Assembly: GCA_015039365.1 (NCBI GenBank)
Contig: WION01000036.1
Span: forward strand, 1-64,000
Source: Amanita rubescens
Lineage: Eukaryota; Basidiomycota; Agaricomycetes; Agaricales; Amanitaceae
Length of the DNA: 64,000 nt
Reading direction: 5' to 3'
In this document: in pieces, positions 32,725 through 53,328 of the stretch
How the letters are laid out: each line of letters opens with the position of its first letter
How positions within the stretch are numbered: position 1 is the stretch's first letter
Notes under the pieces: generated by a model
The model's database searches: none
Seen by the model: only the letters and a program-made list of their open reading frames with translations
What the model was told of the DNA's origin: nothing
Made by a program: the position numbers and the translations under genes

Positions 32725-33593
32725 TGGGTCATGGCAGGACGCGGTGTGATCATGTGTTTCTGCGAAGGGCTAAACATTTTTGGTACGAATTTTAACAAGA
32801 ATCATGTAGTACTAGTAGTGGAGTGTGCTGTGGAATGATATGGTTGCAGAAAGCGGCCGTTGAACATACTACATAGTGAATTCAAGCAACTCCGAGTCAG
32901 CGCTGATTTGTCAGCACGTAGCGTTGCCTCCCCAGTCTTCCTCGCTTTCCAAAGCTCTCTTGCTCGCCCGCCTCCCCATTTACTCCCTCGTTAAATCACG
33001 CAGAAGTCGAGAAACAGATGCGGGAGGACGTGCAGCATTGGCGTTGAGGTATATATGCTTCGTGGCGTCTTGCCATTTATATTCTCGTCCTACTACTAAC
33101 ATCTCTGGAACGGGAGCATCGCATATGTCGCGGTAAAGGGTCTTAACTTAACATTAAAGTTCATAAATGCAAAACTGGGTCAGATTCGACAGTTCTTCCT
33201 CTTCTCCGCCCGCTGTGTGGTGAGGTTCTCCGCGGCTACACGAACTGAGTCTCGTAGTCATTTGTGTTTTGGATCGTCCATGTTTGGCTTGACGATGGGT
33301 AAGGCAGGAGTTGACAAGGCTGGAAATGCTCAGCCGAAGCCGCACGTCTCTTGAGCGATATTAACATGTTTGTCCTGCTGTCTTGCACTTACAGGCGTAC
33401 TGATTGTTTCGCGTCCTGCCGCACCTGCGTTGGAAGGACCGCACATTCAAGAGCTTGAAGGAAAGGTTTCGAATGAGGACGGACGGAACAGACTGTAATA
33501 ACTCCACCTCAAATCCAAGAATGAATAATAAGCGAGAGAAGCCTACCTTGAATTCAGCTAGCACATACGGCCTCACCTCATTCCTTTGATTTA
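32725..33593. other. intergenic
   Basis: No gene recognised on either strand; only short ORFs below 90 aa. The right edge is the proposed left end of the giant KDZ unit. Confidence 0.4.
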
Positions 33594-33669
33594 TTGCAAG
33601 ATTTTCTTCTGATTACAATACCATCAAATTGCAACATGTATTCTAATTAGAAAGTAATGCTGCTGTTGC

Positions 33670-34860
33670 AACATGTCAGCCCCTCAGCCCATCATCCACG
33701 TCCACGAGTCACGTGCCCCCGCAACTTATTCTGCAACCCCCAGCGCTCCCGCTCACCGTCTACAGTTGCAACACGTTGTGAAACCGCCACTCCCGCTCAC
33801 CATCCCGTTGCAACTCAACTAGCCCAGTCCCTGAACCGTGATGCGCCGCGCTCCCGCCCACCATCTACAGTTGCAACACATTGTGAAACCGCCACTCCCT
33901 CCCGCTCACCATCCCGTTGCAACTCAACTAGCGGTGATGCGCCGCGCTCCCGCTCACCATCTACAGTTGCAACACGTTGTGAAACCGCCACAAGTCCCGC
34001 TCACCATCCCGTTGCAACTCAACTAGCCCAGTCCCTGAACCGTGATGCGCCGCGCTCCCGCTCACCATCTACAGTTGCAACACGTTGTGAAACCGCCACG
34101 AGTCCCGCTCACCATCCCGTTGCAACTCAACTAGCCCAGTCCCTGAACCGTGATGCACCCCTCGCCCACCTCATTTGAACACACGCTGCAATCCCCCTCA
34201 CCATTTGGTTGCAACAGCTAACCCTGTCCCCCAGCCACAATTTATGTTGCAACATGACGTCTCGCTGACCTGTGCCCGCCGTATAACCTTGTTGCAATAC
34301 GCCTCCTCATTGTCTACTAGTTGCAACGGCGGCTAGCGCAGTTCACCACTTCCACTCACGGTCTAATTGCAACAATTGATGTCCCCGAGCCATGATTTCC
34401 GTTGCAACATGTCGTCTCGCTGACTCGGGCTTGTGCGCGCCTCGTAACCCTGTCGCAATGCTCTTGGCGACCGCTCACCATCTAGTTGCGATGGCTAGCG
34501 GCCCCCACCCGCTGCTGCCCAGTTGCAACAGATAATCTAGTCCCTGAGCTATGATTTCTGTTGCAACATGCTGTCTCGCTAACCGGTGCCTGCCTCGTAC
34601 CTCCCTTGCAACTGTCGCTCCTGCTCTAGTAGCCCAGTCCCACCGTCTCGCTCACCGTCTAGTTGCAACGGCTAGCGCAGTCCGCCGCTTCCACTCTATC
34701 GTCTAATTGCAACAGCTGCCACGATTTCTGTTGCAACATGTTGTCTCGCTGACCTGTGCCTCATACTCCTGTTGCAACCGCTAGTTGCAACAGCCCAGTC
34801 CCCTCGTCTCAATTAGCCATTAGATACCGTAGCCCTGACATGCTCACGCAGTTGCAACAG
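33670..34860. repeat. left GTTGCAAC array with a 100-bp minisatellite core
   Basis: From about 33740 to 34160 a unit of about 100 bp is repeated four times (CCGCTCACC..CTACAGTTGCAACACGTTGTGAAACCGCC.., CCCGTTGCAACTCAACTAGCC, CAGTCCCTGAACCGTGATGCG). From 34160 to 34860 the repeats are more degenerate, but GTTGCAAC recurs every 30-60 bp. GTTGCAAC is its own reverse complement. The 173-aa ORF across it is a repeat by-product. Confidence 0.85.
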
Positions 34861-35207
34861 AGATATAATTGATACACCTTACCGTTATGAACTAGTTTTG
34901 GTCAATTGAATATGTTCCTGACACTAGTCTACTAAGACAGCATAACATTACCATTTGTATGGAGTGACATAAAGTAAGACGGCGTTACAACAGAAGTCCT
35001 GTTGCAACGAACTGGTACGAAAAAGGAAAAAAAAGACTACTACCACTGCCAAAACTAAACCTTCTTTCTCGATCGCTTTGCCGCTGGTCCCTCCCAACGA
35101 GTCTCATCGGCCATTTGCCGAGGTTTATGAGCACGGGTTGCACCTTCTGGTAGCACAAACGATGCATCTATTTCATCTTTCCGAGCACGCTTGCGTGGTT
35201 TCGCCGG

Positions 35208-35604
35208 TGTAACGAGCCGATTCCGGCTACGTTGGAACCGATCTCCGAAACCTTCCGAAGCTCCCCGAAGCACTCCGAGCCTATGCTCGATCCCGGAGGA
35301 TGATCGTTTGTGTTCGGATGCACGCACAGGCCTCGGACTCGGTGCAGGATTCATCACATGGTCACCTCGTGCCTCCGTAGTATATATACCATTGTGTATG
35401 TAGTTGTAGTTAGCGAATTATCACCCCATCTGCGTTCCGAGTTCGATTCCTTTCGTTCCCTTCGTTCCTCGGTGCTTCGGACACCTTCCACTCGTTCACC
35501 TTCGTCTTCGGCACTCTCTCTGCCTCCGAGGCACCCCCAGGACTGACCTCCGAAGCCCCTTTGGCCGAACGCACTTCCGCATCGGCCTTCTTCTGATCGT
35601 TTCA
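35208..35604 (+). repeat. left LTR
   Basis: TG..CA-bounded, 397 bp. It contains TATATATA at about 35380, a plausible promoter core. It is rich in CTTCGG/TCCGAAG palindromic bits (CTCCGA, TTCCGAAG), giving it strong secondary-structure potential. Confidence 0.88.
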
Positions 35605-35993
35605 ACTGGAGCCCACCGCGAGGGGCTCTTAGGTCAGTCCATCGGTCATTCCTTTCACCCAACCGCTACACAGAAAGCATCGGACAAGTTCCGGTGTCAC
35701 TTGGAATCTCCTCCGAGCCACTCCAAGCACTCTGCCGGCCTCCCCATAGCTCAGAGACCATACCCCGCCGACATTTCTTCAATTATACCCCCCCCGCTCT
35801 TTACACTGCAGTAGCCTTCACCACCCGGCCCCACAGCACCAGCACAGCATCAGCCGAATAACGCCCACACGTGCCGCCACTCCCGATCCAGCTCCGATCA
35901 ATCAATAGCTTTTGCCCCTGGATCCCTTAGCCTCCCGATCCACCTCGCTTTCCATCAGAATAGCTCGCTTCGCTTCGGCCTGCCAGTAACATC

Positions 35994-37535
35994 ATGACCG
36001 AACCAAACCGCCGCATGCCCATCCGAACGAACAAGGAGGCACCCTGCTTCCGAGGCACTGCCGCTGGCCTTGAGAGATACCTCGAAGATATCGAGATGAT
36101 CTGCGAGGATAGACAACGCTCCGGAGATGCCGAACTGATCAAATGGGCTGTCTACTATACTGATGAGAAATCTTCCGAGATCTGGAGAGCCGCTCGAGAC
36201 ACCCTATCGGATCCGAAAACCTGGGATGCGTTTAAGGAAGCGATTTCCGAGATCTACCCCGAGGCACAGCCCGATCGCCGCCACACTATTGCAGCACTAC
36301 ACGCCGTTTCCAACCGCTTCTCAGCGCAAAATGTTGCATCGGAGACAGCCCTTGCTGAGTATCACAGGGAATTTTCCGGAACAGCTCAATACCTCATCGG
36401 AAAGCGCCGCATGACACGCCGTGAGGCAAGCATCATGTACATGTCCGCATTCCCTCCGGATCTCCGACCCGATATCACTACTCGGCTCACAATCAAGTAC
36501 CCGGACGTCCACCCCGATGACGGCTATGATCTGAAGGACATGAATAGTGCCGCACAATTCATTATCAGCTCAAGGTCTGCTATAGCCTTGCTCGCCGCGA
36601 CCACCCCACAAGCTCCGACGCTTCCGACGCCTCCGACGCCTATCCCTACTCCCCCTCCGAGCACAGCCTTCGCTCCGAGCACAGCTTCCACCCATCTCCT
36701 TAGCGGATGCATTTTCTGCGGAGATATCAATCATCGGACGGCCTGCTGCCATATCAGGGATGAATACGCAAGGCAAGGGAAGATAAAAATAGTCAATGGA
36801 CGGATTCAATTTTTGGACGGCAACGAACCGAATGCATTCCAATACCGCCACTTCGGACAATGGTTCAAAGAACGCATTGATGTATGGCTGCTGAGGTACA
36901 CACAGCCGACCGCTCCGAAGCCATTTGTGTCCTCCAACTACTTCCTGGAAGCTCTAGACCACTCCGGAACGCATACCACCGAGCCTGTCAATACTGAAGC
37001 ACTGCAAAATGTACATACGACTCCGACGCACATACACATTAGCACCACGATCCCTAATCAATCCACGCTCCCTAATACCACCCCCTCCGAACCCTCTGAA
37101 CCCTCCAGACCCTCCGACGCTCCTACCACTATAACGCATGATACCACCGAGACCTCCGAGGCTCCTGATGACCCCACCACTGCTACGCCAATTTCTGACA
37201 CCCCGGAAACCCTCGGCGACCCCATCGCCGAAGTCTTTATCATTTCCGAGCCATCTGGCATCCCGACAGCTGCCATTCCGAGACCTGACTCTGCCGAAAT
37301 TCCAACTGCCGCCCTGACCGCCTGCACGATTGAAGAAAGCGAGATGAGAAGAACCCACCCACCACTTCCCTTCTACTTCCTATCACCATCCGATCTCCCC
37401 GTCCTGACCAGGAGGTCAGTATTAAAAGTACCCAGGAGGTGTAACGAGCCGATTCCGGCTACGTTGGAACCGATCTCCGAAACCTTCCGAAGCTCCCCGA
37501 AGCACTCCGAGCCTATGCTCGATCCCGGAGGATGA
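35994..37535 (+). CDS. Gag-like protein of the TR-GAG element
   Basis: 513 residues in one exon. The N-terminal 200 residues (GTAAGLERYLEDIEMICEDR, KWAVYYTDEKSSEIWRAA, TWDAFKEAISEIYPEA, YHREFSGTAQYLIGKRR) look like a retrotransposon capsid of the Ty3/gypsy type. A zinc-knuckle-like CIFCGDINHRTACC (Cx2Cx4Hx4C) follows at about 240. The long C-terminal half is Pro/Thr/Ser-rich and its reading frame runs 96 bp into the right LTR before stopping. No protease motif (DSG/DTG) is present. The ORF is open, so the protein can presumably still be made. Confidence 0.82.
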   Translation: MTEPNRRMPIRTNKEAPCFRGTAAGLERYLEDIEMICEDRQRSGDAELIKWAVYYTDEKSSEIWRAARDTLSDPKTWDAFKEAISEIYPEAQPDRRHTIAALHAVSNRFSAQNVASETALAEYHREFSGTAQYLIGKRRMTRREASIMYMSAFPPDLRPDITTRLTIKYPDVHPDDGYDLKDMNSAAQFIISSRSAIALLAATTPQAPTLPTPPTPIPTPPPSTAFAPSTASTHLLSGCIFCGDINHRTACCHIRDEYARQGKIKIVNGRIQFLDGNEPNAFQYRHFGQWFKERIDVWLLRYTQPTAPKPFVSSNYFLEALDHSGTHTTEPVNTEALQNVHTTPTHIHISTTIPNQSTLPNTTPSEPSEPSRPSDAPTTITHDTTETSEAPDDPTTATPISDTPETLGDPIAEVFIISEPSGIPTAAIPRPDSAEIPTAALTACTIEESEMRRTHPPLPFYFLSPSDLPVLTRRSVLKVPRRCNEPIPATLEPISETFRSSPKHSEPMLDPGG

Positions 37536-37836
37536 TCGTTTGTGTTCGGATGCACGCACAGGCCTCGGACTCGGTGCAGGATTCATCACATGGTCACCTC
37601 GTGCCTCCGTAGTATATATACCATTGTGTATGTAGTTGTAGTTAGCGAATTATCACCCCATCTGCGTTCCGAGTTCGATTCCTTTCGTTCCCTTCGTTCC
37701 TCGGTGCTTCGGACACCTTCCACTCGTTCACCTTCGTCTTCGGCACTCTCTCTGCCTCCGAGGCACCCCCAGGACTGACCTCCGAAGCCCCTTTGGCCGA
37801 ACGCACTTCCGCATCGGCCTTCTTCTGATCGTTTCA
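37440..37836 (+). repeat. right LTR
   Basis: 397 bp, no difference from the left LTR seen by eye. It is followed by CCGGC, the first four bases of which repeat the CCGG left of the element. Confidence 0.88.
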
Positions 37837-40007
37837 CCGGCACCATTGATTTATCTCCTTTCGCATTTGCCACGGACATGTTCTCAGGCCCAGACGTCGA
37901 AATGGTAGATGGGACACGTGTCTCCGTAGCCCCATTCGTGAGCTCATTCATCGGAATGGAGGAATCCGGATAATTGCAGGGTAACGTACTAGGATCCGGG
38001 CCGAAGCAAGGATGTGAATTTATGTCGCGAGGTGTGAGGACCATGTTAGGAAAGGATGGAGGGTGGACTGATGATTCGAGATTCAAATTATTGCCTAATC
38101 CCGGATTCTGAGCCATAGCAGTCAAGACCAACGCCGCGTCATAAGCCTGGTGATTTGGGTCTGTCATGGCCAAGAACTTCGACATCGGAGAAAGATCCTC
38201 GTATGGTAATGATACGCTCTGCATCATCGGGGTGGAAAATGACAAAGGGACGGATGGCATCCAATTGTTGTCGTACGAGCCCAAAGTGGTTTGCGGCATG
38301 GAGTATCCAAAAGAGGCAGTTGATGCGGAGTATCTCAAAGAGGGAGTTGAAGCCACGGCATGACTTGCAGTTGGGTTGGGCTGGAAGACGGGCAGAGATG
38401 CGGCTTTGCTTTGCAATACAGGTGGTACAGTGGCACCAACATGGGATAGCATGGGGGGGTTCATTGAGTTTTCCCGTATTGAGATATCCGATGCGAATTG
38501 GGAATTCACCCCAGTGCACGCCTGGGGCATCGTGCCGCCCGCTGGCTGATCAGAGACTGGTCATCCAGTTAGTGGATTGGACGGCTTAGGATCTCTGATA
38601 CATACCATCTTTGCCAGTGTGTTCTTTCCTACGGCGCTTACCCGATTTCTTTGGCTGCGGGCCTGAGCTTTTCTTCTCCGTGATTGTTCCCGTTGTCTCG
38701 TTATGTTGATGAGATGCCTCCTGCTCCTCAGGCGTCCCATCTGCGCTGGCATGTGATGCCACATTATCCTCGGACGGCGTATCCGACCTGCCACCATTGT
38801 TCGCTTGGGCACATAGGATGCGTTCTTCAATAGCTAAAAATTAGTTAGCTTGATTCTGATTCAATTTTTAAAAAAGGACTAAACGATGTCGAAGTTTGAC
38901 GAAGGCTAAAAACTCTTGGAGAACATTATGTTGATAATCATCGCATACTTCGGGAAATGTGCCCCCGGCTGCAGTTTTCCCAATGTGAGAGCTATAAGAC
39001 ATTAAAATTGGCCTCGCTGAGATAAGGTTGAGACGTACGCTACGATTTTTACTTCACCATTACGATTGAGACCACCCCCAAGAATTGTGAAAGCCCAACC
39101 AGTTTCATCCTTCAAGTCGCGCAGAAACGAGGTTAATAGCTCTCCTAGTTGGTCGATGCACCTTCAACGATGTCCTGAATAGTTGCATCCCTTGAGATTT
39201 GAGAAATACTTACCCTCCATAGCCGTTGGTAACTGGGTCTTCAGTGCCGTCCAAATCCGGTTCGCCGTCCGCGACTTCATCATCTAAATTTTCGTCAGCA
39301 TTCCACAACGCTACGATTTCTTCCTTGACATCTTCGGACTCCTTTTCCCAGGAAAAAGATCTCCACTTGCGGTAGATGGTCATCTTCCTTTTCTGGAAGT
39401 CCTTCTTGGTCTCGTCGAGAGGCGCCGTGTCTGCGATCTCCCGATCAACCTGGTCCTTGAAGCGGGTCTCGTAGTATTTTTGACTATAGAGTTCAAGTTT
39501 TTGATTCTTCCGAGCACGCTTAACGGGCTTCCGCTCCTTGTTGATGAAGCCTTTCAAGACCCCCGAAGCTCGCGTGCGAACGACTTTCCCAGCGGCACGC
39601 CATCGAACATAATTATTTAATTGCTAAACATAACGTTAGAAGTTAGACATTTGTTAAAAATGCGAGAATACCCACCACCTGTCGTGTTTGGATGGCCTTG
39701 CGTAACACCTTCACATTGTCCTCGGTCAAAAGGTCTCCTTTTTTCCAAGTCTCGCCGAAGACTCTTGGTTCCTCTGGCCAGGATTTGAACCAGCCTTCGA
39801 AGAGCTCGCTGTGAAAACGTTTGAGCCGGTTATCCATTTGCGCTTGGGGGAAGCCCTGTACGTATCCATTGAGATACTCTGTTTGGGCCTTGGAACGTTC
39901 CCATTTCTTAGGCATGGCCCAAGATGCAACGCGAGGAAAAAGTAATATGCGAAGCCACCGCTATTTCTAGGATCGACTGACCCCAATGGAGATGAACGGA
40001 AATTCAT

Positions 40008-40399
40008 ACTAAAATACAAAAAAAAAAATAATCTTGCATCTCAAACGACCCGATGCACTTACCGAATAGAAGGGGAGCCTGAGCGCAAGAAAACGCTGTT
40101 GCAGAGATTGTAGGAGATGAATCGCGATCTGAAATAATCTGAAGTGATCTGACACACCCGCCCCAATACAAACGTACCTGATATCGTGGGTAAACAATAG
40201 TTCTACTAAAATACCAAAAAAAAATTAATCTTGCATCTCAAACGACCCGATGCACTTACCAAATAGAAGGGGAGCCTGAGCGCAAGAAAACACCGTTGCA
40301 GAGATTGTAGGAGATGAATCGCGATCTGAAATAATCTGAAGTGATCTGACACACCCGCCCCAATACAAACGTACCTGATATCGTGGGTAAACAATAGTA
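40008..40399. repeat. tandem duplication of about 196 bp in the cargo gene 1 leader
   Basis: 40008-40204 and 40205-40399 are almost identical, differing in poly-A length and a few bases. On the minus strand each unit carries CACGATATCAG/GTACGT and CTATTCG/GTAAGTGC junction-like sites, so it probably duplicates a non-coding leader exon or intron of cargo gene 1. It lies in the divergent promoter between cargo genes 1 and 2. Confidence 0.8.
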
Positions 40400-40507
40400 T
40401 AGAGCAATTTTCGCACCTAACCTGAAAGGAGAACAAAATGACGAGATAATCCATTGAATAGATCTGAGACGCTCAGATACGTTGCCAACCAAAAGGGAAC
40501 CTGAAGG

Positions 40508-41509
40508 ATGGATAAACAAACCGCTGGGTATAAGATGCTGGTCATTCACAGGGATGAAAAGGGACCACCGTCTTACCGTGATCCACCAAGCATGAGGCAA
40601 AATTCAGCCATACAGCAGTCCGACGCTGGCACACCTCCCGAGTCATCAGATGAAGAGTGTACAGATGATTCCTTTATTGTCAAGCAATTGTCGTTTGTGA
40701 TAGAAAGGTTGGCCATACTAGAGAGTAAGTGAAACATCCGATGATAATGCAGCGAGACTTACCAAGTGCTAGGCCGCCTTGACCGCCTTGAACGAGCCTC
40801 CGTACGCAATGCCGCACAAGGTTAGTCAGCATGTATGGTTTTATTTTGCTCCTATTGCACAGCTTCGTGATCAGTTCCAAATCTGGCTCCTTCGCCTCGT
40901 CCAAACCATGCCGCTGAAACCCACACAGCTCAAGGTACACATATCATTAATCACCTTAATCAAAGACTAACTTTGACTTCTTATCCACCCCAGTTACGCC
41001 AAGAAAGACCAAGACAACACGTGGAATCCAACTTGGCGTGAACCCTCGCTCACCAGCACACTGTGCCTCTCCCCACCAAGTACATGTTCGTAGTGGCGAG
41101 AGTCAAGGTTCATACCATGCTCCTGGCATGACCAAGGCCCGTCTGCCATCTGAAGACGAGGGTTTTGACGGCGTGGCTGGGCCGAGTCAACAAAGATCTA
41201 GGCTGCCCGACCATTACTTCCATCCCAATCCCATTTCGTCACCAGATTGGCTTTCTCAATCATTGGAACGCACTCAAGATGACACTTACTTTGTTATCAC
41301 GCAAGGACTTGAGCCAGGAATATATGCAGGCTGGTATGTGTTGTTAATCAAGTTATTGTCAGGTTACTTATATGCTTAGGCCCGAAACTGCGGTTCTCGC
41401 AAAGAATGTCAATGGTGTTTGGAAGAAAGCATACTCAAGGAAAGCTGCACTCGAGATTTACCGCAAAGCGTATGATAGTGGCTTTTGCAAGCGTATCCAC
41501 CATAACTAG
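40508..41509 (+). CDS. KDZ-unit cargo gene 2: protein with an RNase H1 N-terminal/viroplasmin-like domain
   Basis: The spliced product starts MDKQTAGYKMLVIHRDEKG, passes through an acidic Ser-rich linker and a coiled-coil-like segment (VIERLAILES, RLDRLERASVRNAAQ, LRDQFQIWLLRLVQTM) and ends in the only recognisable domain: YFVITQGLEPGIYAGW, then (over an intron near 41335-41379) PETAVLAKNVNGVWKKAYS and ALEIYRKAYDSGF. This matches the fold that lets eukaryotic RNase H1 bind RNA/DNA hybrids (YYAVxxGRxPGIYxxWxEC...V.G). The name viroplasmin describes the fold only; this is a fungal gene. No RNase H catalytic domain is attached. At least five exons are needed. The role may be nucleic-acid binding for the element or its host. 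Confidence 0.66.
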
Positions 41510-41619
41510 TTTTTTTGTCGAACTTTTGTAATACACGCCGCGCGCACCGTCCCGTCCTTCATATGGTGCGAATGAAAGTAGTATAGAATAATAAGGGCGT
41601 CAAGTTCTCTAAAACAGCA

Positions 41620-42082
41620 TTACTTGGGTCCTTCGGAATTGACAACTGAATCCGAACGCCGTTCTCCCTGATCAGAACGATGGTCTCCTAGTACCGCCCG
41701 TTTCCGAGTCTCGCTTGATGATGGCCTCAACTGGCCGCAGCAGCAGCAGCGCTCTGCCAGGTCTAAGCTTGCCGTTGCCTCTCCCGAGTCCGCTTGAAGT
41801 CCGATTGCTTTTCGTTCTTTGAGCTCACGTTCTTTTGCGCGGCGCCTTTGTCAAAGTCAAACAATGTCATAATTGGCCGTTAACCATTCCTTACTGCTTG
41901 GCTTTGACCCGCTGTGCCGCGCGAATGCGCTCCTTGTTCCTGCCATGCGTGAGAACAATTGGCTCAGCAATCCATCTGTTAGTCCAGCACACTCACCGTT
42001 CATAATATTCTCGACACGCTTTGCGATGCCGGACAAGCTTGGAGGGGAAACCGGACGTGTTGGGATCACCCGATACTGGCAT
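41620..42082 (-). CDS. KDZ-unit cargo gene 3: small basic coiled-coil protein
   Basis: Three exons splice cleanly: from MPVSGDPNTSGFPSKLVRHR and KACREYYE to RNKERIRAAQRVKAK, then QRRAKERELKERKAIGL and an acidic/Ser-rich tail ending SVVNSEGPK. The central YYERNKERIRAAQRVKAK is a highly charged helix of a type often seen in repeat-associated agaric proteins. A CCCCGQ cluster follows. The product is about 117 residues. No known domain. It is convergent with cargo gene 2 (110 bp between stops) and divergent from the KDZ gene (287 bp). Confidence 0.55.
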
Positions 42083-44294
42083 GATAATAGCAGGGAGCGG
42101 ACGTAAATGAACAAACCCAACGGTTACGGAATAAGTGATATCAAGTTCTCGGCTAACTAAGACTTCCATCAGGAACATGTCAGTGATGAGCATGGTGTAT
42201 TGATGTCAACTACCTACTGTATTATCAGGTGCACGATCAGGTAGATATCCTCAGATACCTCAGATTAGCCTAGACTACTGAGCAGGCACATGACAATACA
42301 TGTCTGCTTATTGATAAATAGGTAATGACAATCTGCTGCTACCGTTCGATACGGGCCAATCTTGACCCATGCTACTACGTCCTAACAAACGAAAAGCGCA
42401 GGAAAATCGACATCGACCTAGGAAGTCAAAATCATTCGATGTCTTTGACGTCTCCAACGACGGGAAAACTCTGTTGGCTTCAAGCTCTCGCGGACAATCA
42501 CCCCGTGTCCCGGCAGGCTTCAAAGACAATGCAGATAGAAATCAGAAGGCCATAAATGTCGTTGAATGGCAAATTCATGACGATCGCATCTCTACATTGA
42601 ATACCCTAGCTGCAGTAAAGCACACGGAATCAGAATTGCGGTCTAGTACCACCGGCAAATCGTCAACATCCATCATGAACAATGACTCCACCACATCACT
42701 GGCTCTACCCCCACCCGAATCAGACTCTATCTCTCTTGAACAAATGTTTGATGATGATGTCGTGCACCAGTACGGTGATTTCCTTCAAGATGAAGCTGCC
42801 GAGACAGAATTAGATAAGGAAAACCAACGAGTATGTTTATCTTTTTTCCATATCAACCTACGTCATCGTGTTGTAGGATAATGCGATTCAAGCTTGGGTG
42901 ACGGACATCGACATGTTTCTAGATGAGTTAATCCGATTAGACGGACGAGGGGATTCAGAGTCGAATGCAGATAACTGTCGTCGATGTTCAAAACAGCAGC
43001 GCCGCGAATACAGATGCAGAGACTGCTTTTGCAACGAACTCTTCTGTAGGGATTGTATTTTGGACTATCACAAGTATAATCCTCTTCATTTTCTCGAGGT
43101 CAGGTCCACTACTAGATTTTTACTCGATTCATTCTAACGTATATGTGCGATAAGTTCTGGAACGGCAAATATTTTGAGCGCATAACCCTGAAATCACTCA
43201 ACCTTCGCATTCAACTTGGTCACCCTATCGGGGAACTCTGTCCCGTCCCTCAGCCTTCTTCCGATGACTCATTTGTTATCATAGATACTCACGGTGTCCA
43301 TCAAGTTGGACTTGACTTTTGTGGGTGTGGGCGCTCCGGTTCAATGGTACAGCAACTGCTTCGATATCAACTCTTTCCCGCGACAGTCCAAAATCCGTCC
43401 ACTGCGGCTACATTCCGCGTCCTTCGTCACTTCCAAATATTGAACTTCGAAACTAAGTGTTCCGCCCACGACTACTTTCAAACTCTCCAGCGGGAGACAG
43501 ATAACACTGGTCTTTCTGCTCGAAAAGTGAGCCGTCTTTTCTCGTATTTTACCGATGCACCTAAAAACAGGGATAATAGGATAGGTACCGAGAGTTTTTG
43601 CGGATGACTCACGAGTGGCGGCATTTGAAGATGATGAAAAGGGCTGGACGTCGGCAGCATAATAACAGTACGAAAGACGAAGAAGGATCATGTGCGATCT
43701 TATGTCCAGCTTGTCCCCAGCCGGGCATCAATTTGCCATCTGATTGGGAGAATGGCCCGGAAGATACCCGGTATCATGTTCTCCCACAATTCTTATTTTT
43801 GTTTCGTCGCTGAATTTATTATCTAGATGGCTTTATACCTTGTTTCTCGCATTGGATGCGAACTTCCGCATGACTCGCAAGAACGTATCAAATGAGGAAC
43901 GTGATCCCTGTCTAACACAACATCGTGGATATTTCGTGAACAGCAAAGAATATCAAGATCACCTTCAAACTCACGGCGGTAAGCGACAAGCAGTAAGTTA
44001 TCAGATAATTCAACTGCGTTTGACCATGATATCTAATTATAAGCACAGCCAAGTACATGTGTATCACACGATGCAGTCAACAGCGCTGACACGAAGGATA
44101 GCCGAGGCCTTCTGATCACGGGGATAGGGACAGTGGACTGCGCACGTCATGACATGAAATGTCCTAACAGTGTAGGCGATTTACAAAAGGGGGAAAGGTT
44201 TGAAGTACATCGCATTTCATCGACCAATCCTAACTTGGGATAGATACGCAAACATGGATTTTCGAGGTCTTTACCCTCCCCCACTCATTCCTTA

Positions 44295-44600
44295 TGGATT
44301 CCTTGCATTCCGCGTGGAGGTTCCATGGAATCCACGTGGATTCCTTGCAATTTCAAGATGGTCCAAATGGCCCAGAACACACTAAAAAAAGTCCATGGAA
44401 TCCGTGTGGAATCCGTGTGGAATCCATGCATATTCCACGGAATCTCAGGAATTTGCCTGGAACAGGAGTGACAAGGAATCCACATGGACTCCATGGACTC
44501 CATGGATTCCAGGTACATTTCTGCCTGGTTTGCATAATGCTGACATACAAGGACTTTCAGCACAAGGAGTCCTCAGGAGTCCACATGGACTCCTGATTCC
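44295..44600. repeat. left subterminal GGAATCC palindrome cluster
   Basis: About ten copies of GGAATCC or GGATTCC, several joined into self-complementary words such as GGAATCCACGTGGATTCC (44333-44344 region). They are probable binding sites for the mobilising transposase. Confidence 0.75.
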
Positions 44601-45499
44601 CATGGTCATGTGACAGGCCACTTGGTCTGTGCGCCAGCCCACAGGTATATAAGGAGAGGGCATGTACCACATATCCCCCACTGCTTCCCCCCCTTCCTTG
44701 AGGATGGGGGGGAGGGGAGTGATAAGATTAGATAGATAGATAGTGATTAGATATATGTACATCTCATAGGTAAGTAGGTAAGCTTAAGTAGCAGTATGAT
44801 GATGTAGATAAGATAAGATCACAGATAAGATAATATGATTTCCTTTTATAGAATTTGTGACAACATGAGGTGTGTGACGCGTGACTGTGACAAAAAAGAT
44901 GCACCTAGATTGTGTGATTCAGAATATACAAGAATGACAGTGCCAAACAAAGTCAAACATGAGAAACACTTTTTCACATCTGACAGAAAATTGAAAAAAT
45001 CCAAAAAATTGTCAAAAATCCAAAAACATTATGTGATCACATCTCTGCAAGAATTGCAGTGCAAAACACAACCAAACACAAGATATTTTCAAAATACTGT
45101 TTTGGTGGGAATGGTGGCTGTTACAGTAATGGACTCCTACATTAGTACACAATCATGCTTGGCAGACAAGCCTCCTCATTCATCATGCCTATCCTTGCTT
45201 ACTCTACCTTGATTACTTTGCTGACACATGCATTGTTACATATGTAGCTGTGGTCAGCGATCTGATATGTAGTGGGGTGTACACACTTTACTGTATTTAT
45301 TTCTGCAACACAATCAGGACCTAGCCTACTCCTTTGCAAATTTGTAGTTGTTTCCCCCATTTGACTGGTGTGTTTGCAAAATGCTGTACCTACTAAGCTT
45401 CCACACTAGAGTGACCATCTGGCAAATGATACAATGAGACAGACTAGGGCTATGTAAGACTAGTATGGATACATATATTGAAAGAACACCTCAAGTTTG

Positions 45500-45800
45500 C
45501 AATAGTGCCCCTTAGACAGTCAGACAGTCAGACAATAAGTGTATCAGCAGCTGACAGTGCCTTTTAGATAGTCAGACAATCAGACAACTTATGCAACAGT
45601 GTCTCTCAGATAGTCAGACAGTCAGACAATTAGTGTATCAGCATCCATCAGTGTCTCTTAGATGGTCAGGCAGTCAGACAATTAATGTGTCAGCATCTAT
45701 CAGACAATCAGAAAAGCAGAAAATCAGACAAGTTATGGAGTAGTGTATCTCAGATGATTAGGCAGTCAGACAACCAGTGTGTCAGACAGAACCAGATGCG
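45500..45800. repeat. degenerate CAGACA/AGTCAGACAAT tandem repeat
   Basis: Imperfect repeats of AGACAGTCAGACAAT alternating with GTGTCTCTTAGATAGTC in the core of the hAT-like element. The longer word GATCACTAGCTGTCAATATT also occurs twice further on (about 46038 and 46198) in an approximately 160-bp direct duplication. Confidence 0.65.
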
Positions 45801-46414
45801 ATCAGACTTTTACTGTGTTAGCTGATGGTCATCCAGTAGGTCACTTCTGTACTACTGATAACTGAGATCCTTAAAGTCTGCTTAGATGCCCAGCCTTTTC
45901 AGCTAACAGATGTGGTTGCTGGAGGTATCCATAAGCTGGTAGGTGTGAGAGGGAGGTGGCAGGTGATTGCAAGTGGTTCCTTGTGATGGTAATGAGGTAG
46001 ACATTGATAACTTGAATTGCTGGCATGTCAGCCACCATTGATCACTAGCTGTCAATATTCTGCTAACAACTGCTCACCAATGTATGTATCTCCAGATAGT
46101 CATCTCCAAACTTCAAAGCCCCCACATGATTACAGAACCCTCATGACAACCTTCTCACGTCTATTCATGACCTCTGAGGCTCTGCAATGTTATGTCGATC
46201 ACTAGCTGTCAATATTCTGCTAACAACTGCTCACCAATGTATGTATCTCCAGATAGTCTGTGGCTTTTGAATGGTTAGCTGATACTGATCCAAGGACTAT
46301 CTTGGTATTTGGACTCTATGCATGTCCTAAGATAATAAATCTTATATAGGTTTGATCTTAGGAATTTTCTATATTTTTTGGAATTTTTTCCATATTTTTT
46401 AATGCATATATTGC

Positions 46415-46625
46415 TGCATGGAATCCACGGAGTCCACATGGATTCCAGACAATGTACCAGGAATTCAGGTGTAAATCATGTTTTTGCCTGTTGCCAGGAA
46501 TGTGCCTGGACTGAGCATGGAATCCACATGGACTCCATGGAATCCTGGTAGAATTTCCACAGAAATTTCCTTTTTGCAAGGAATCCATGTGGAATCCATG
46601 TGGATTCTGTATGGATTCCATGGAG
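46415..46625. repeat. right subterminal GGAATCC palindrome cluster
   Basis: The same GGAATCC/GGATTCC words as at the left end (for example GGAATCCATGTGGAATCC and GGAATCCACATGGACTCC), in mirrored arrangement relative to the terminus. Confidence 0.72.
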
Positions 46626-48556
46626 TCAGCCAGGATCCTGCCAGGAAGCGTGGGGGAGGGTAAAGTACTGGGATTTTCTATTCTATTCGGGCCTCAAGAA
46701 GACTGCGATCAAGACGATGGTCATATCTTACGACATTGCCTGTCAGTGGAGTATCAATTTCCGCACCCGAATGAAGGCATGTTTCCCGGAAACTTGGCCC
46801 ATCAATTCAGATGCCCAGCTTCGTTTCCTTGTTCCAAAATTCCACCTACCGGCTCACATCAACAAATGTCACCAAGATTTCTCATTCAATTATACTCCTC
46901 ACGTCGGGCGTACAGAGGGCGAGGCACCGGAGCGAGGCTGGTCCAAGATCAATGCGCTCTCGTACAGTACAAAGGAAATGGGCCCAGGGTCGCGGCAGGA
47001 TACGATCGAAGATCACTTCAATGATACAAATTGGAAGAAGGTAATCGGAATGGGTAAGTAGATTTCTGACTTAACTTCGAGTATCGTCTGAGCCTTATGT
47101 TTAGGATTGAGCCTTTATCGAAAACTTGACGTCGCTAATCAGGAAAAAGAGCAACAGCAGCTCGCGTTGAACGAATTTACAGAAGCATTAGATGATGAGC
47201 AAGTCTCCGTTTGGTTACAAGAGGTACAGGCATGGGAACAGGATCCTTCTAAACCTAACCCGTTCCGCCCGCGCACAAATGGTGTGTTCAGAGATCTTAT
47301 TTCTCATGAGGACTTCCCTGAATCGGAAAACAGAGCCGACGCAAGCTGATGTTCGCCTTAAGCTGGCGCAGAAAGACATGCAGAAGGTGCAGGATGGCGC
47401 AGCAGTGGAGTCTCATATAAGTGACAGCGCCATGATCAGCATGGGCATTGACTTGGAGGAATCAAAGTACGTGTTTCTTTCTTCTTTAAGATTTCTCCCA
47501 ATTACCCCTGGGCAATTAGACGCAAGTTACAATCCGAGATTTCATCCCTGGGCATACATGCGACATCACTCCAAAAAGCGCAGATTCAGGAGAAGCTGAA
47601 TACCCTTTATCGAAAGCTAGTCAATTGGTCTGAGGTACAATCAATTTACATTCCGGCCGTTGCAACACTACGTTCCCTGCAGCTATCCCAATGTGAATCG
47701 TTTGATATCCCTGACATTCCTATCGTGAACATGGATATCTGGCTTCCCTCAAACATTGGTAACAAGGTACACTGGGACCGAAGTCTCGGTAAATACGAGT
47801 GGTCACTCCGTGTGGCCCAGGCCAAAGATTCCCTCGAAGAGCTTCGTCAAAATATATACCTTCGTGACTTCCTGTTGAAGAAGAAAAAGGACTGGTCACG
47901 TGGAGTACGTCAAAATACTCGGTCACAGACGCTTATCGATCGGGCCAAGACCAAAGTCATTGCCTGTGCCGCCAAATATCGTATCGCGCGCATCGCCCTC
48001 GGACAACTTGCCCCAATTCTTGACAATGATGATTCATGGGCAACTGAGTTACGTGATTTATCGGAGAGTGACATAGAGGGATTGCCTGCTGAAGGCTGGG
48101 GAGAAGGTCGGAGGAGATTGTCATGGATCTGGGTAGTGGCAGGCGTGGGTGCAGGCGATGGAACACACTCTCAACCGCTAGCAGATGGTACGTAATAATC
48201 AGGAACCAGTTAGTAAGGTGACAACACTAGATCACTCAGGCCTGCGACTTCAATGGTGCCGTGCTCGAGCGCGCTCTCTCCGATGGTCGGAGGAAGTCTC
48301 CTTGATTAAGGAAGAGATGCGACGGGTCTTGGCATACTTTACTTGGTATGAGCAGTGGTGGCTGGATTGGGCAAATGAATACGAGGGGGATGGGCAGTGC
48401 AATGCAATGCTGGAAGGATTATCTGCATATGCTTTCCGCCAGGCTAATATCAGATCTCGAATGCGTGAGTCTTTCACAAAGCTTTGGTACACTGAAAAGG
48501 CTCGTAAAAAGAATGAAAAGGCTCGTAAAAGGAATGGAAAGGCTCGTAAAAAGTAA

Positions 48557-49245
48557 TATCAATACAATAATCTGTACAACGTAGTTCTAATACAGATTTT
48601 CGCAATATGGAAGTAGCATCATTCAGTCGATCAGACCCAGATTTCTAGAAGGAACGATCTAAGGCCGGGATGACGATCAGGAGCGGTGTAATGCGGCGTG
48701 AACAAAGGGCTTACCAAAAAAGTCAACAAATGTTGCAATATGAGCAGAAATCGCACGCAGATCTTGATTGCCCCGGTGGGGTAGTACTGGTGCCACGGTT
48801 TACGATACACGATCAGGAGGTTGTTGATGTCGTCATTCGGCGATGTCGTGTTCAGCTTGTCCACAGTTTCTGTCTCAGCACAGGAAGTGTCGGTGGAGCT
48901 CGTCCCACGCTGACTGAACAACAATAGTTCCACTGTGACCGACGGTGGCTGCAAAAACATCGCATCTTCTGAGTGGGTCGAGTGAGGGCTTGGTGGGGTG
49001 GCAGGACCATAAACTCATCCTATTTCTTGTCAGTTGAATTCTAAACAATAAAAAAGTAGGTACAAACGAAAACAGTCCTTCTATCGTGATCGCTTGTGCA
49101 TTCCAGAGGCGTTGAGGCCTAATTTGTTCATTCAAACTGTGAACGAGGGTAGGATTCTCTGCTGGGGGGTGGTGAGAGGCAAAAGCCCCGGGCATGTTAG
49201 GCCGCCATCCGTCATTATTTGTATCGTTGGAGACGTCGTGGTAAA
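48557..49245. other. unassigned part of the KDZ unit
   Basis: A minus-strand ORF at 48631-48960 (109 aa) and an overlapping one at 48875-49195 might be exons of a fourth cargo gene: TTSPNDDINNLLIVYRKPWH reads like coding sequence and is followed by a possible donor. I cannot splice them into a convincing protein. Confidence 0.3.
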
Positions 49246-49249
49246 GTCC

Positions 49250-50475
49250 TGGAGATGTTGCAACAAGTCGGGGGTCAGCAGGTCAGACCGCTGGGAGCGG
49301 CGGTTGTGATGGGGGCACGAGGCAGGCACAGGTTAGCGCTGAGACGACATGTTGCGGCAGAAATAAAAGGACCAGGCTAGCTGTTGCAACTAGATGGCGA
49401 GCGAAAGCGGTGGACTGCGCTAGCCGTTGCAACTAGGTGGTAAGCGGGAGGGTTGGAATAGGGTTACGGGGCAGGCACAGGTCAGCGAGACAGCGTGTTG
49501 CAACTAGACCGTGAGTGGGAGCAATCGTTGCAACGGGCGAGGCAGGCACAGGTCTGCGAGACATGTTGCAACAGAAATCGTGGCTTGGGGAATAAGTCAG
49601 CTGTTGCAACTAGACGTGAGCAGGAGCAGAAGACTGGACTAACTGTTGCAACCACGGGGTGAGCGGAAGTAGCGGACTACACTAGCCGTTGAAGCTAGAC
49701 AATGAGCGGGAGCATTGCAATGGGGCTAGAGGTGGGCGCAGATCAGCAAGATGGTCTGTTGCAACACAGCTCGGGGATCACACTACTACAACTAGATGGT
49801 GTGCGGGAGCGATGGTTGCAACGGGGTACGACTCGGAGGCAGGCACAGATCTGTAAAAGGAAGTTACTGTTGCAAAGGCTAGATTGGTGAGCGAGAGCGA
49901 CGGACTGGACTAACTGTTGCAACTATACGGTAAGCGGGGGTAACGGACTGGCTCGGGGACTGAGCTACTAGTAGCTGTTGCAACTAGATGGTGAGCGTGA
50001 GTGGCGGTTGCAACAGGAATCATGGCTCAGGGACTAGGCTAGTTGTTGCAACGGCAGTAAGTGGAAGCGGCGGCCAGCACAGGCCGTCACAATTAGATGG
50101 TGAGCGGGAGCGTTCCAATGGGGCACAGGTCAGCGAGACGATATGTTGCAACAAAAATCATGGCTCAGGTAGAGGGCTTTGAACTGTTGCAACTAGACGG
50201 TGAGCAGAAGCGGTGTGATGGGGGCGGGTCAGCGGGATATGTTGCAACTGATCAAGAGCATGTGCGCACATGCACAATCCGGGGACTGGGCTGTTGTTGC
50301 AACTAGATGGTGAGCGGGAGGGCCAGTGATTGCGGGTTAGCGAGGTAACATGTTGCAACAGGACAAGGGCCATGATGCGCCCATAGCTCGGGGACTGGGT
50401 TAGTGTTGCAACTAGATGGTGAGCAGGAGTGGCGGTTGCAACGTCGGCGAGAGTGTCACGGTTGCAACTAAGAGC
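49250..50475. repeat. right GTTGCAAC array
   Basis: About 25 copies of GTTGCAAC spaced 30-90 bp apart, typically followed by TAGATGGTGAGCGGGAG and preceded by GGGACTGGGCT. The consensus is the reverse complement of the left array. It is more degenerate than the left array and lacks the 100-bp minisatellite core. Confidence 0.85.
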
Positions 50476-50575
50476 GCCTTGGGCACGTGACTAGGTGAAC
50501 GTGTGAGGGATGTCGTATACTCTGTTTGCTGCAAGACGTCCTGTGTTCTAATCAGAACAATTTTTGCAAGATTTT

Positions 50576-53328
50576 AACAACACTGCCTGACGGCCTCGTC
50601 GCTAGATTCAAAAAATGTGCTCCAGTTTGCTTTGACCTGGATAACGATCATTCAAGAATATTTAATGTGAAAAGTTGGACTTACCTTGTATGCACAATCG
50701 TAGAATACGTTGGTGACTACACGCTTGGCTGTTACAAATCGATCCGACGTTCATGAATGGTTCGCAGCATCTTCCCAACGGGGATGCTTTACTACGACGA
50801 CCCGATATCCTGGCAATCGCCAGGAGCTCCCAGTTTCCAGGTCCTTTCAATGTACCCGTCAGCCCGCGAGCCCGCAAAAATTTGTGCGGCCCTTTAGAAA
50901 ATCAACGCGTTTGAGCCCCACCACTCGTTCCGCTTCAAAGCTCACGGCGGCTTTACACGGGCGCATATAGGCGCTAGAAACGTCCGACTTGACCTGTTCA
51001 GTCGGGATAAGGTCGTACTCGGCCTTGGTCGCCAGATGACGAAGGAACCCGTAGAGCACGTACACCAGCAACGGATCAGATGACACTAATTTAATGTACC
51101 ATGGAAGTCTCTTGTGCACGATGACAAGGTAGGGTCATGGTGGATATGTGGCGGGCTCGAGTAGCACTGCGTGGGGAGACGCGCGGCGGGCGACATGACG
51201 GGGTCGAATATCAGATGGACAGGACAGTTGCCATATTTAACCGGGGTAATTAGTGCGCCCACAGCGGGAAGCGGCGAGCACGAGCATGAGTAAGGTGAGG
51301 ATCTATAGTCCAACGATGGTGGTATCGGCGGGCCATCCGAATCTGTGACTGTTGGCAATGAGTAGGACGACAACGGCGTTGAGAGAGCAGGCGACGAAGG
51401 AAAAGGGAAAATGTGGATCTTGGGGTGCAAATTGCATGAACGGGGCAAAACTGGGATGAACAGTTCCCAATCAGAGCTTTTATCTGCCTTGTGTAAAGTC
51501 AAGAGAACCTTGAACGAGATGCGGAGTGAGCCAAGTATAACTTGAATAAATCGACATACTTACCAGGCGCACCGGCTAACGGCTCACACCCTGTGGTTTT
51601 CCGATGAGCAGGGTGTGAGGTCTCCTGGGATGAACGCACCATCCACGATGGTCTGGTTGGAGAAGTATGAGGCCCTGAGCTTTTCTGACGGTGTCGTGCA
51701 AGACGTTCGTTCGTGACTGCGTCGTACATATCTAACTCCGCCATCACTGCGCTCACGACTTCGAATGTAATTATCTGGATTCTGCCACCGGAACCCATGC
51801 CTTTTGAGTACACATGGACAGGGATGGATATATACAAGTAGTAAACAGACAATCCTTCTTGAAACACAGTAGCTCTGTTCGACTACAAAAGCGTCGCGCC
51901 AGAGCTCATATCGAGCTCGAAGGGCAGTGTCACCTACCGGGCTTGGTCACGGTAAGCGACGGCGGCGACAAATTCAGACCGAAAACTGTCATCTCATATG
52001 TATATGTCAATCTTCTGAAACGAAAAGAACAGCGACCCACAGGGAATATGCATTCTTCGTGGATGAGTTTAACCTTATCGGAGCTACGGAGAATCTCGAG
52101 AGATTTGGGGTCAAATCTAGCTGCGTTTCAATGACAATCAGCTTTCGATAATGGAGAAAAGAAGCTGCATATGTACCAGTGAGACATCTTAAATCATCAA
52201 AGTTGTCCTCGATGTTCTCGGCGGGTGTGGTGAGGTTCAAGGCCGATATGTCAGCCCTGGAAGTGTCGTCACTGAACAGGACAAGATGTCTGCCGGTGTA
52301 TGTTATCGTGGACATTGTTTGGCGCCGCTTGGAAAAGTTCTCACTTCGGATAACCCGTGACCGGTTCCGGACCGGGCGGAAGTATCGGTTCCGGTGCCAG
52401 TAAGAGCGAACGGGAACGGGAAAGTCGACTCGATTGGGGAAAATTGATCAGGAGTGTGAGCTTATGCTAGATAGATGTTGTGGATTTGTGAATTGCATGT
52501 TAGGTAACTTAGAGTTTGTATAAAAAAATTATTTCTGAATACCTCAGAAATAAGATGTTTCTGCAATCTAGGACGAAGCACACCATGGATATTGTGGATG
52601 CGACCATCCCGAGTAATATAACAGGTAGGATACGGAATCGATGTTACGTATAGGGCTTGATAAATAGGAGCAGACCCGCCGCATGTGTAGTTTAGCTATA
52701 CAGTCAGCAAAGACGGGCTGGAGCGGATTCGGCAGAGCTTCATGAATCGAGTTTCAAGTTGCCTTTTCCTACGAAGACTGATTCCCGCTGAACCTGAAAG
52801 TAGCATGTATACGCCTTGCGAAGCAGATATCGGCGTCGTTCCATGTTATACAGAGTGCATTTGCTGTGCTGTCTTTGGAGGGCGCCAAGAATCGTCATAG
52901 ATTAAGCAGTCGAAGGTGTGTTGGCGACTTCTCCCTGAAACGGAACCGAGTCATTGATGTCAGTTTCGTCAATTTCAACGTAAATGGTGGCATACCAGAG
53001 TGGGGAACGCCGACGGCGACTCGACATTCTTCACCAGGCTCCCTCTTCCTTTAAATTAAGTCACTATAAATTTAGAGACGTGGCCAAAATATATTACACT
53101 TTAACCATTCAGTAACATTTCTAAACAAAATATTAATTCTGGAGATATTTCAGCCCTACATCTTCTATCAGATGTTGTTACTTGAAGAAAACCATACTTT
53201 CAGCAATGGAGCCTTGTGCTGAAGTGGCCAAGAAAAGAGTAACTTTGGTGTATCAGTCAATCTGAATCCTCTCTCAAATGTCTTTTAATAAAGGGCTTAC
53301 AACACGGCGGAATATCTAGCTTGACTCA
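50576..53328. other. 2.7 kb without a supported gene
   Basis: Several minus-strand ORFs of 80-140 aa (50859-51119, 51086-51502, 51499-51867, 52007-52315) could be exons of one or more lineage-specific genes. The segment at 50860-51119 (KRLPWYIKLVSSDPLLVYVL) looks the most protein-like. I could not join them in frame with confidence and recognise no domain. At 52340-52440 there is a CGGTTCCGG-rich block reminiscent of transposon subterminal repeats, without a partner. Confidence 0.35.

Follow-up and report, generated by a model that had tools for sequence, protein, structure and literature searches.

A KDZ transposon of Amanita rubescens bounded by inverted arrays of a palindromic octamer and carrying three genes beside its transposase

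A stretch of about 17 kb in the genome of Amanita rubescens is bounded by inverted arrays of one short word and holds a transposase gene together with genes of other kinds, which raises the question of whether it is a single mobile unit and, if so, what its repetitive ends are for. We analyzed it within 64,000 nt of contig WION01000036.1 (assembly GCA_015039365.1), referred to as the window here.

Termini and copies of the element

The stretch is a DNA transposon and belongs to the KDZ superfamily (Kyakuja-Dileera-Zisupton). Its termini were placed by comparing the copies or ends in C126, C704, C18, and C343 and an empty allele, C407; they are at 33574 and 50589, so that the left end moves outward by 20 bp and the right end by 14 bp from the limits of the original prediction (33594..50575). 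The 3' terminus, ...CTGCCTG, is identical in C126, C704, and C18, and the sequence beyond it differs in each. Target duplications of about 7 to 8 bp flank the two complete copies, ACGGCCT(C) in the window and ACTACCT(C) in C126. Both copies are also compatible with an 8-bp duplication and A..G termini, the left duplication in the window then reading ACGGCCTC, provided that the element begins at A. CA..TG termini are slightly favored because the leading C is kept in three left ends (window, C126, and C343), so that the data favor, without proving, a 7-bp duplication, 8 bp being the maximum. The short inverted repeats with TTGCAA that had been predicted outside the arrays are present as an imperfect inverted motif, TTGCAA-N6/7-TTCTRATTA, about 60 bp or less from each terminus; a long TIR is absent from the ends of the window element.

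The checks suggested with the original prediction were applied to this one genome, which holds another copy with similar ends and the same gene order. This copy, C126, spans 11,331 bp and has octamer arrays at both ends; its four genes correspond to those of the window element and are arranged and oriented alike. Its empty allele, C407, matches the two flanks of C126 at 96.4% and 99.5% identity and has a single ACTACCTCA. Together with the duplication in C126, this settles the mobility of the element family and supports the original reading of one large mobile unit. Arrays and genes travel together in the two complete copies, but a further copy, C704, retains the genes and has lost the left array at its present boundary.

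Genes carried and nested insertions

The predicted KDZ transposase is encoded by gene D (Table 1), whose product comprises an N-terminal region, a Cys-rich finger, a CxC2 cluster, the KDZ core, and a conserved C-terminal domain. The KDZ domain (PF18758) scored 135 bits in the window and 139 bits in C126 (cutoff, 26.6), and CxC2 (PF18803), located N terminal to the core, scored 144 and 131 bits (cutoff, 27). None of 41 proteins related to the transposase C terminus bears a Pfam label. The open reading frame at 42366-42881 was rejected as the third cargo gene, being the N terminus of the transposase; the small charged gene lies on the opposite strand at 41620-42082.

The three nontransposase genes proved to be real, all of them being conserved in C126. 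The exons of gene A, which encodes the "GWAF" protein, were matched one by one to C126 by tblastn, and gene C matched it in three pieces; a comparison of one gene A exon with a large protein database gave no homologue among 20 candidates. Gene B scored 18.5 bits against PF01693 in the window, below the cutoff of 21, and its C126 orthologue scored 29.5 bits, above it. Pfam scans assigned no family to gene A or C. They also gave no TET/JBP hit in the sequences covered, which were 10 ORFs and 2 spliced proteins from the window and 8 ORFs or exons from C126. Searches of Rfam at gathering cutoffs and of viral contigs gave no match.

The predicted "giant" size of about 17 kb stands as a measured length, but it is in part an accident: two younger nested insertions make up about 5.0 kb of the 17.0 kb. 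The base element is 11 to 12 kb long and reaches 17 kb through these insertions, which interrupt its genes. One is probably LTR-retroelement-like, and its 523-amino-acid open frame had no Pfam match; the other, of 2,407 bp, has mirror-image arrays of its own (GGAATCC/TCCATGGA). With genes A and D interrupted, the window copy is probably unable to move by its own proteins.

Table 1. Features of the element in window coordinates
Feature	Positions	Strand	Remarks
Left target-site duplication ACGGCCT	33567..33573	.	Read directly; register matches C126 ACTACCT(C)
Whole KDZ element	33574..50589	+ (set by transposase gene)	17,016 bp; 5'-CACCTCATTC...CACTGCCTG-3'
Left terminal motif TTGCAA-N7-TTCTGATTACAA	33594..33618	+	Second copy, TTGCAA-N6-TTCTAATTAGAA, comes next
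Left subterminal GTTGCAAC array	33665..35008	+	21 exact copies; includes 96- to 108-bp tandem units
Gene A, "GWAF" protein	35055..39915	-	Several exons, predicted limits; C-terminal part split off by LTR-like insertion
LTR-retroelement-like insertion (probable class) within gene A	35206..37836	.	Pair of identical direct repeats, 399 bp each; CCGG on each side
197-bp tandem duplication upstream of gene A	40007..40398	.	97% alike
Gene B, RNase H1 N-terminal-like domain (Cauli_VI, PF01693)	40592..41509	+	Predicted exon limits; tblastn to C126
Gene C, small basic helical protein	41620..42082	-	About 118 amino acids, CCCC motif; three exons, predicted limits
Gene D, KDZ transposase	42369..48556	+	Core exon broken by nested element
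CxC2 cysteine cluster, PF18803	43188..43511	+	144 bits, E = 1.9e-42
Nested 2,407-bp element inside KDZ core exon	44264..46670	.	8-bp duplication GGATTTTC
Second part of KDZ catalytic core (positions 97-217 of PF18758)	46654..47031	+	135 bits, E = 4e-39
Right subterminal GTTGCAAC array	49257..50468	-	22 exact copies; spacers in inverse orientation to those of left array
Right terminal motif, inverted, TTGCAA-N6-TTCTGATTAGAAC	50545..50569	-	
Right target-site duplication ACGGCCT, then C	50590..50596	.	Read directly

Palindromic arrays and rival explanations

The window contains 45 copies of the self-complementary octamer GTTGCAAC, where 1.21 would be expected, and none of 100 shuffles reached this count. 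The two mirror-image arrays described in the original prediction hold 43 of the 45 copies, 21 on the left and 22 on the right, where 500 first-order Markov simulations gave expectations of 0.08 and 0.05, respectively. The window contains 37 inverted pairs, and among the 25 longest, 23 join the left array to the right one. The octamer is also the top 8-mer common to the arrays of the window and C126 (86 and 34 occurrences, both strands), the next-ranked shared 8-mers being shifted versions of it. Beyond the octamer, the arrays of the two copies have little in common: a DNA search with the window arrays did not find C126, and one with the left array of C126 did not find the window. Pairs of GTTGCAAC are also present away from listed KDZ genes, e.g., in C231, and for the 50 pairs listed of 64, the 12 other places include two dispersed repeats and one single place.

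The genome yielded 126 KDZ transposase matches, many being exon pieces of one gene. In the nearest other KDZ family, found in C95 and C772, the KDZ gene is flanked by arrays of a different palindrome, TGATRYATCA. There are 30 pairs of this word genome-wide and none of its reversed control; for 17 of the 30, the listing shows no KDZ core closer than about 49 kb. Palindrome enrichment downstream of KDZ loci exceeded 100 Markov simulations at 9 of 12 loci and did not at the other 3. Three of these nine are copies of the window element, L054 and L055 belong to one sister family, L056 rests on a word with zero exact copies, and L060 is enriched upstream as well. Fifteen copies of GCCTAGGC beside the KDZ gene at L057, another of the nine loci, were rejected as a palindrome array and excluded from support, as they form a regular 34-bp minisatellite.

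The arrays might be inert minisatellites that grew by replication slippage at the element ends, with the octamer merely lying within the repeat unit, and both the tandem units of the left array and the plain minisatellite at L057 speak for this. Slippage nevertheless fits poorly with the irregular octamer spacing (13 to 150 bp in the window and 54 to 317 bp in C126), with an octamer kept between copies whose spacers could not be aligned in the searches made, and with exact copies outnumbering one-mismatch copies in three of four arrays (left and right, 21 versus 6 and 22 versus 1 in the window and 9 versus 2 and 8 versus 7 in C126), which makes it quite improbable. Somewhat less so, but still unlikely, is that the octamers serve a host protein, either a transcription factor or one that acts in silencing, and thereby control of the element's promoters rather than its transposition. 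A palindromic octamer would suit a dimeric host factor, and the arrays adjoin genes; however, the sister KDZ family of this genome has a different palindrome, so that an element-encoded reader fits better than a single host reader, and octamer numbers are about equal at both ends, yet genes A/B and C/D start internally.

The three extra genes, in turn, could be passengers captured by chance by an element made up of transposase and ends only. Pfam matches are lacking for genes A and C, gene B matches the RNase H1 N-terminal domain alone, and fungal DNA transposons, including Kyakuja, are known to capture TET/JBP genes according to passages of PMC12730594. Against this, gene order and orientation are kept in two copies whose pS is 0.53 to 0.96, i.e., most synonymous sites differ, and pN is lower than pS in all 14 usable stretches across the four genes, so that the three genes look like conserved accessory genes. 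Homologues of gene A within the genome, moreover, sit only in copies of the window element (C126 and C704) among the best candidates listed. The predicted cargo is present but does not behave as a chance load, and we regard random capture as about as doubtful as the host reader. Far less credible than any of these is that the stretch belongs to the host and bears its repeats by chance. The other haplotype of the window, C634, lacks 18.7 kb and has no target duplication, as if host DNA had been deleted; because the missing part includes both near flanks, we rejected C634 as a clean empty site, and an empty site was recovered for the C126 copy but not cleanly for the window copy. The filled and empty alleles C126 and C407, duplications in two copies, and identical termini at several places stand against host DNA, which is already refuted for the C126 copy.

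Proposed mode of action and known counterparts

Our main reading, to which we give a probability of about 75%, is a cut-and-paste KDZ transposon with a CxC2-KDZ transposase, three accessory proteins, and arrays acting as putative family-specific palindromic binding sites. The arrays are probably a landmark for recognition by the element's own proteins. A dimeric element-encoded protein would bind GTTGCAAC, with about 20 sites per end in the window copy and 8 to 9 in C126; the candidates are the finger/CxC2 region in the N-terminal part of the transposase, small basic protein C, and protein A. Occupied arrays would bring both ends together in one complex, and the KDZ core, by the cut-and-paste chemistry presumed from its superfamily, would cut at CA/TG and then join the ends to a staggered target. 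Several observations weigh against this reading: one-mismatch copies are almost as numerous as exact ones in the right end of C126, C704 has no left array, pairs of either palindrome also occur without a listed KDZ gene nearby, and 3 of the 12 KDZ loci examined did not exceed the simulations.

Judged by its favored CA...TG ends and a duplication of 7 bp, or 8 bp at most, the element appears most like Kyakuja. Passages on Kyakuja of Agaricomycetes (Kojima 2025, PMC12730594) give a KDZ transposase, 5'-CA..TG-3' termini, a 7-bp duplication, and an extra gene, with a TET/JBP dioxygenase in the described elements and two Laccaria families stated to be without TIRs. As far as these passages go, the window element shares the transposase, probably the termini and duplication, and the presence of genes beside the transposase, but it differs in its imperfect inverted motifs, palindrome arrays, and three other genes and, unlike TET-plus Kyakuja, gave no TET/JBP hit among the ORFs scanned. 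The word "subterminal" is absent from the main text of that paper. Zisupton of fish and fungi, also of the KDZ superfamily, is given there an 8-bp target duplication, whereas our data favor, without proving, 7 bp with CA..TG. The elements KDZ1 to KDZ3 of Cryptococcus neoformans, as presented in passages of PMC12810828, are 9 to 11 kb long and of demonstrated mobility, with a predicted Zn-chelating CxC domain (CxC1), TIRs of 139 to 241 bp, and target duplications of 4 to 8 bp. The window element shares their superfamily and CxC-type transposase but has CxC2 instead of CxC1, a 7- or 8-bp duplication, and no long TIR; "subterminal" does not appear in PMC12810828, and its passages on KDZ1 to KDZ3 mention no accessory gene set.

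The literature searched, which had the founding papers outside its scope, did not describe arrays of this kind for any KDZ element, and none of the papers found deals with how KDZ elements recognize their ends. In plants, the ends of CACTA/En-Spm and Ac/Ds elements carry many short subterminal motifs that are bound by an element-encoded protein; to our knowledge, these motifs are not perfect palindromic octamers. The motif-rich ends of the window element may work alike in a different superfamily, as CACTA features were not found in it: its termini read CACCTCATTC...CACTGCCTG, its duplication is 7 or 8 bp and not 3 bp, and its transposase is of the KDZ type.

More tentatively, and with some doubt, we suggest an exchangeable "address code," in which each KDZ family would have its own palindromic word, repeated many times at either end and recognized by a coevolving dimeric accessory protein. 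The word of the window element would be GTTGCAAC, that of the sister family TGATRYATCA, and that of the 2.4-kb nested element possibly TCCATGGA. Such a code would amount to a two-component system, with recognition by the accessory protein separate from cutting by the KDZ core. Palindromes that differ between sister families and are kept amid changing surroundings offer a direct test of the pairing of protein and word. The four-gene set shows what a complete element contains and so helps to annotate long stretches of fungal genomes that are labeled "hypothetical."

Copies, termini and empty allele of the element

We found in the window a mobile KDZ element with definable ends, target duplications, four conserved genes and, in two copies, a conserved octamer array at each end. 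The window corresponds to positions 1-64000 of contig C289, in a genome (75.7 Mb, 786 contigs) whose KDZ/CxC2 content suggests a basidiomycete. This genome was searched with one exon each from three genes, and only the best candidates were scored. All three queries led to contig C126: the gene A ("GWAF" protein) exon to 78101-78517 (58%), the gene B (RNase H1 N-terminal-like) exon to 79737-80117 (38%), and the C terminus of the transposase (gene D) to 83822-84535 (70%). Among these best candidates, contig C704 was reached by two of the three queries and C363 weakly, by the gene B query. Window and C126 share two long aligned DNA blocks (77% and 73% identity), and an exon-by-exon reading of C126 recovered all four genes, including that of the small basic protein C, in the order and on the strand seen in the window. 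Together with octamers at both ends, this makes the 11.3-kb C126 element a further copy of the kind called for by the original prediction of one large mobile unit. Contig C704 carries a third copy, which matches that of C126 at 98.6-99.1% identity across three long blocks; its gene B is split by a 49-kb insertion, and a left array is absent at its present boundary. On C18, ∼0.9 kb of the right end lies within the 10 kb fetched. The C704 insert (74365-123557, junctions in stretches L064 and L065) has inverted ends (AGCTAACAYGTCAAAAGTCTGATGCCATCTGA), an apparent ATG duplication and KDZ matches inside, and is either a giant element or a nest.

On the left, the outermost stretch common to the window and other copies is 5'-CACCTCATTC, which is also present in C126 and, as CACCACATTC, in C343. 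The right terminus, CTGCCTG-3', is identical in C126, C704 and C18, with three different sequences beyond it, and also forms the last seven bases of the window element. Since these termini are common to several copies, we used them to set the limits of the window element (see the table). The C126 copy is flanked by ACTACCT(C). Contig C407, interpreted as the second haplotype of this locus, lacks the element: its two flank alignments cover 1,543 and 1,510 bases (99.5% and 96.4%) and overlap by 10 bases at the duplication. An empty site and its duplication, as expected of a mobile unit, were thus obtained for the C126 copy. Two readings fit the ends: CA..TG termini with a 7-bp target duplication, the combination given for published Kyakuja elements (PMC12730594), or A..G termini with one of 8 bp. 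Tests of membership place the element in the KDZ superfamily, and its termini suggest Kyakuja as the nearest lineage. The open frames scanned in the window and C126 yielded no TET/JBP match. On C634:1-2122 (L075), the other haplotype relative to window positions 32943-51672, ∼18.7 kb is missing; this gap covers the element plus 0.6-1.1 kb of either flank, and no target duplication was seen at the junction.

Coordinates of the window element, its nested insertions and TGATRYATCA pairs near other KDZ genes
Feature	Position	Setting	Details
Window element	33574-50589		Flanks ACGGCCT on both sides, next base C also matching
LTR-retroelement-like insertion	35206-37836	In gene A	Identical 399-bp direct repeats, CCGG on either side
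2,407-bp element	44264-46670	In KDZ core exon	8-bp duplication GGATTTTC
C95 pairs (n = 5)	48.3-49.2 and 58.6-59.3 kb	KDZ gene between	KDZ gene at 50.3-52.1 kb
C772 pairs (n = 5)	24.2-25.0 and 51.3-52.2 kb	KDZ gene between	KDZ gene at 48.4-50.2 kb
C495 pairs (n = 3)		One side of KDZ gene

Octamer arrays at the ends

The octamer GTTGCAAC occurs 45 times in the 64-kb window versus 1.21 expected. The left end region has 21 of these sites and the right end region 22; the other two are in the coding region (47659) and at 30656. The spacers of the left array are inverted relatives of those of the right, in agreement with the mirror-image arrangement proposed originally: among the 25 longest of 37 inverted pairs, 23 join the two arrays. 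In the fetched stretch of C126, the octamer is found nine times at the left end and eight times at the right. Used as DNA queries, the left and right arrays of the window matched the window itself only, and the C126 left array did not find the window; the top 8-mer shared by the arrays of both copies is GTTGCAAC (86 and 34 occurrences, both strands counted), followed by its shifts. The neighboring bases are weakly constrained, with mainly A 3' and T or A 5' of the octamer. Exact versus one-mismatch octamers number 21 versus 6 and 22 versus 1 in the window, and 9 versus 2 (left) and just 8 versus 7 (right) in C126.

We propose that GTTGCAAC may be bound by a protein of the element as a dimer, that the arrays would increase its local concentration and label the element's ends, and that the KDZ core would make the cuts at the termini. 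Protein C, with its basic helix, is a candidate reader of the octamer, as are the cysteine-rich N terminus of the transposase and also protein A. The ends of CACTA and Ac are comparable in their way of working, not in descent. In the literature searched, no paper was found to contain both "KDZ" and "subterminal"; novelty of the arrays is claimed only relative to that body, which leaves out most subscription literature and did not yield the founding work on KDZ.

Conserved genes and nested insertions

Gene A has no Pfam match, and its homologues among the best candidates scored in its own genome are those of C126 and C704 only. The Cauli_VI / RNase H1 N-terminal domain scores 29.5 bits in gene B of C126 (cutoff, 21) and 18.5 bits, under the cutoff, in that of the window. 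The gene C product (∼118 amino acids) is basic, carries CCCC and is probably largely one long helix. Between window and C126, pN was lower than pS in all 14 usable stretches (8 + 6), the pattern expected of genes that are retained because they serve the element. The dN/dS values, from the five stretches of A, B and D with dS, were 0.13-0.15 for D, 0.19 for A and 0.37 for B and are rough, because synonymous sites are near saturation; three further stretches were saturated, and the set of six that includes all those of gene C gave pN and pS only.

The window copy owes much of its 17 kb, against 11.3 kb in C126, to two nested insertions; it also has a 197-bp tandem duplication. The insertion in gene A is young, and its 523-amino-acid open frame has no Pfam match. 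The two ends of the 2,407-bp element match (CTTTACCCTCCCCCAC), and GGAATCC/TCCATGGA arrays lie in mirror image within it; it is possibly a non-autonomous KDZ relative. Because both insertions interrupt genes, the window copy, although apparently intact at its ends, is unlikely to be autonomous. The left part of the 2,407-bp element also occurs in stretch L014 (C451), beside another KDZ match, and L064 (C704) has repeats resembling its middle. Elsewhere in the window, a near-perfect inverted repeat (23906-26100), whose arms reach at least 1,034 bp with 99.8% identity and are separated by 127 bp, has relatives of 87-89% similarity in stretch L073 (C18).

Palindromes around other KDZ genes

Genome-wide, 64 GTTGCAAC pairs lie 30-60 bp apart, versus 3 for the reversed control. 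Among the 50 of these that were listed, the window element accounts for 27, C126 for 6, C18 for 1 and C231 for 4; the other 12 are elsewhere, 11 of them belonging to two dispersed repeats. C231:35454-37104 is a further GTTGCAAC array with different spacers, on a contig for which no KDZ match is listed.

Palindromic 8-mers around 12 transposase C-terminus loci were tested against 100 first-order Markov simulations and exceeded all of them at 9 loci in the 1.5 kb downstream versus 1 upstream. The enriched loci include copies of the window's element (L050-L052) and its next closest relatives (L053-L055); at L056 no exact copy of the top word exists, and at L060 the upstream side is enriched as well. 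L057 was rejected as a palindrome array, being a minisatellite.

The next closest relatives (C495, C95 and C772; 34-38% identity) carry TGATRYATCA, pairs of which number 30 genome-wide versus 0 for the reversed pattern. For most of these pairs the data consist of positions. As TGATRYATCA arrays lie to either side of the KDZ gene in C95 and C772, two KDZ families have two different palindromes; that more than two families have palindromes is a suggestion. C113, C354 and C673 account for the other 17 pairs, none of which has a listed KDZ core within ∼49 kb. On C113, dense TGATRYATCA arrays at 72040-72409 and 76875-77172, 4.5 kb apart with no listed KDZ match between, represent a possible non-autonomous relative. 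At C772:24208-52171, a second KDZ gene (33939-35840) apparently lies inside the element with TGATRYATCA arrays, which would be a case of one KDZ element nested within another.
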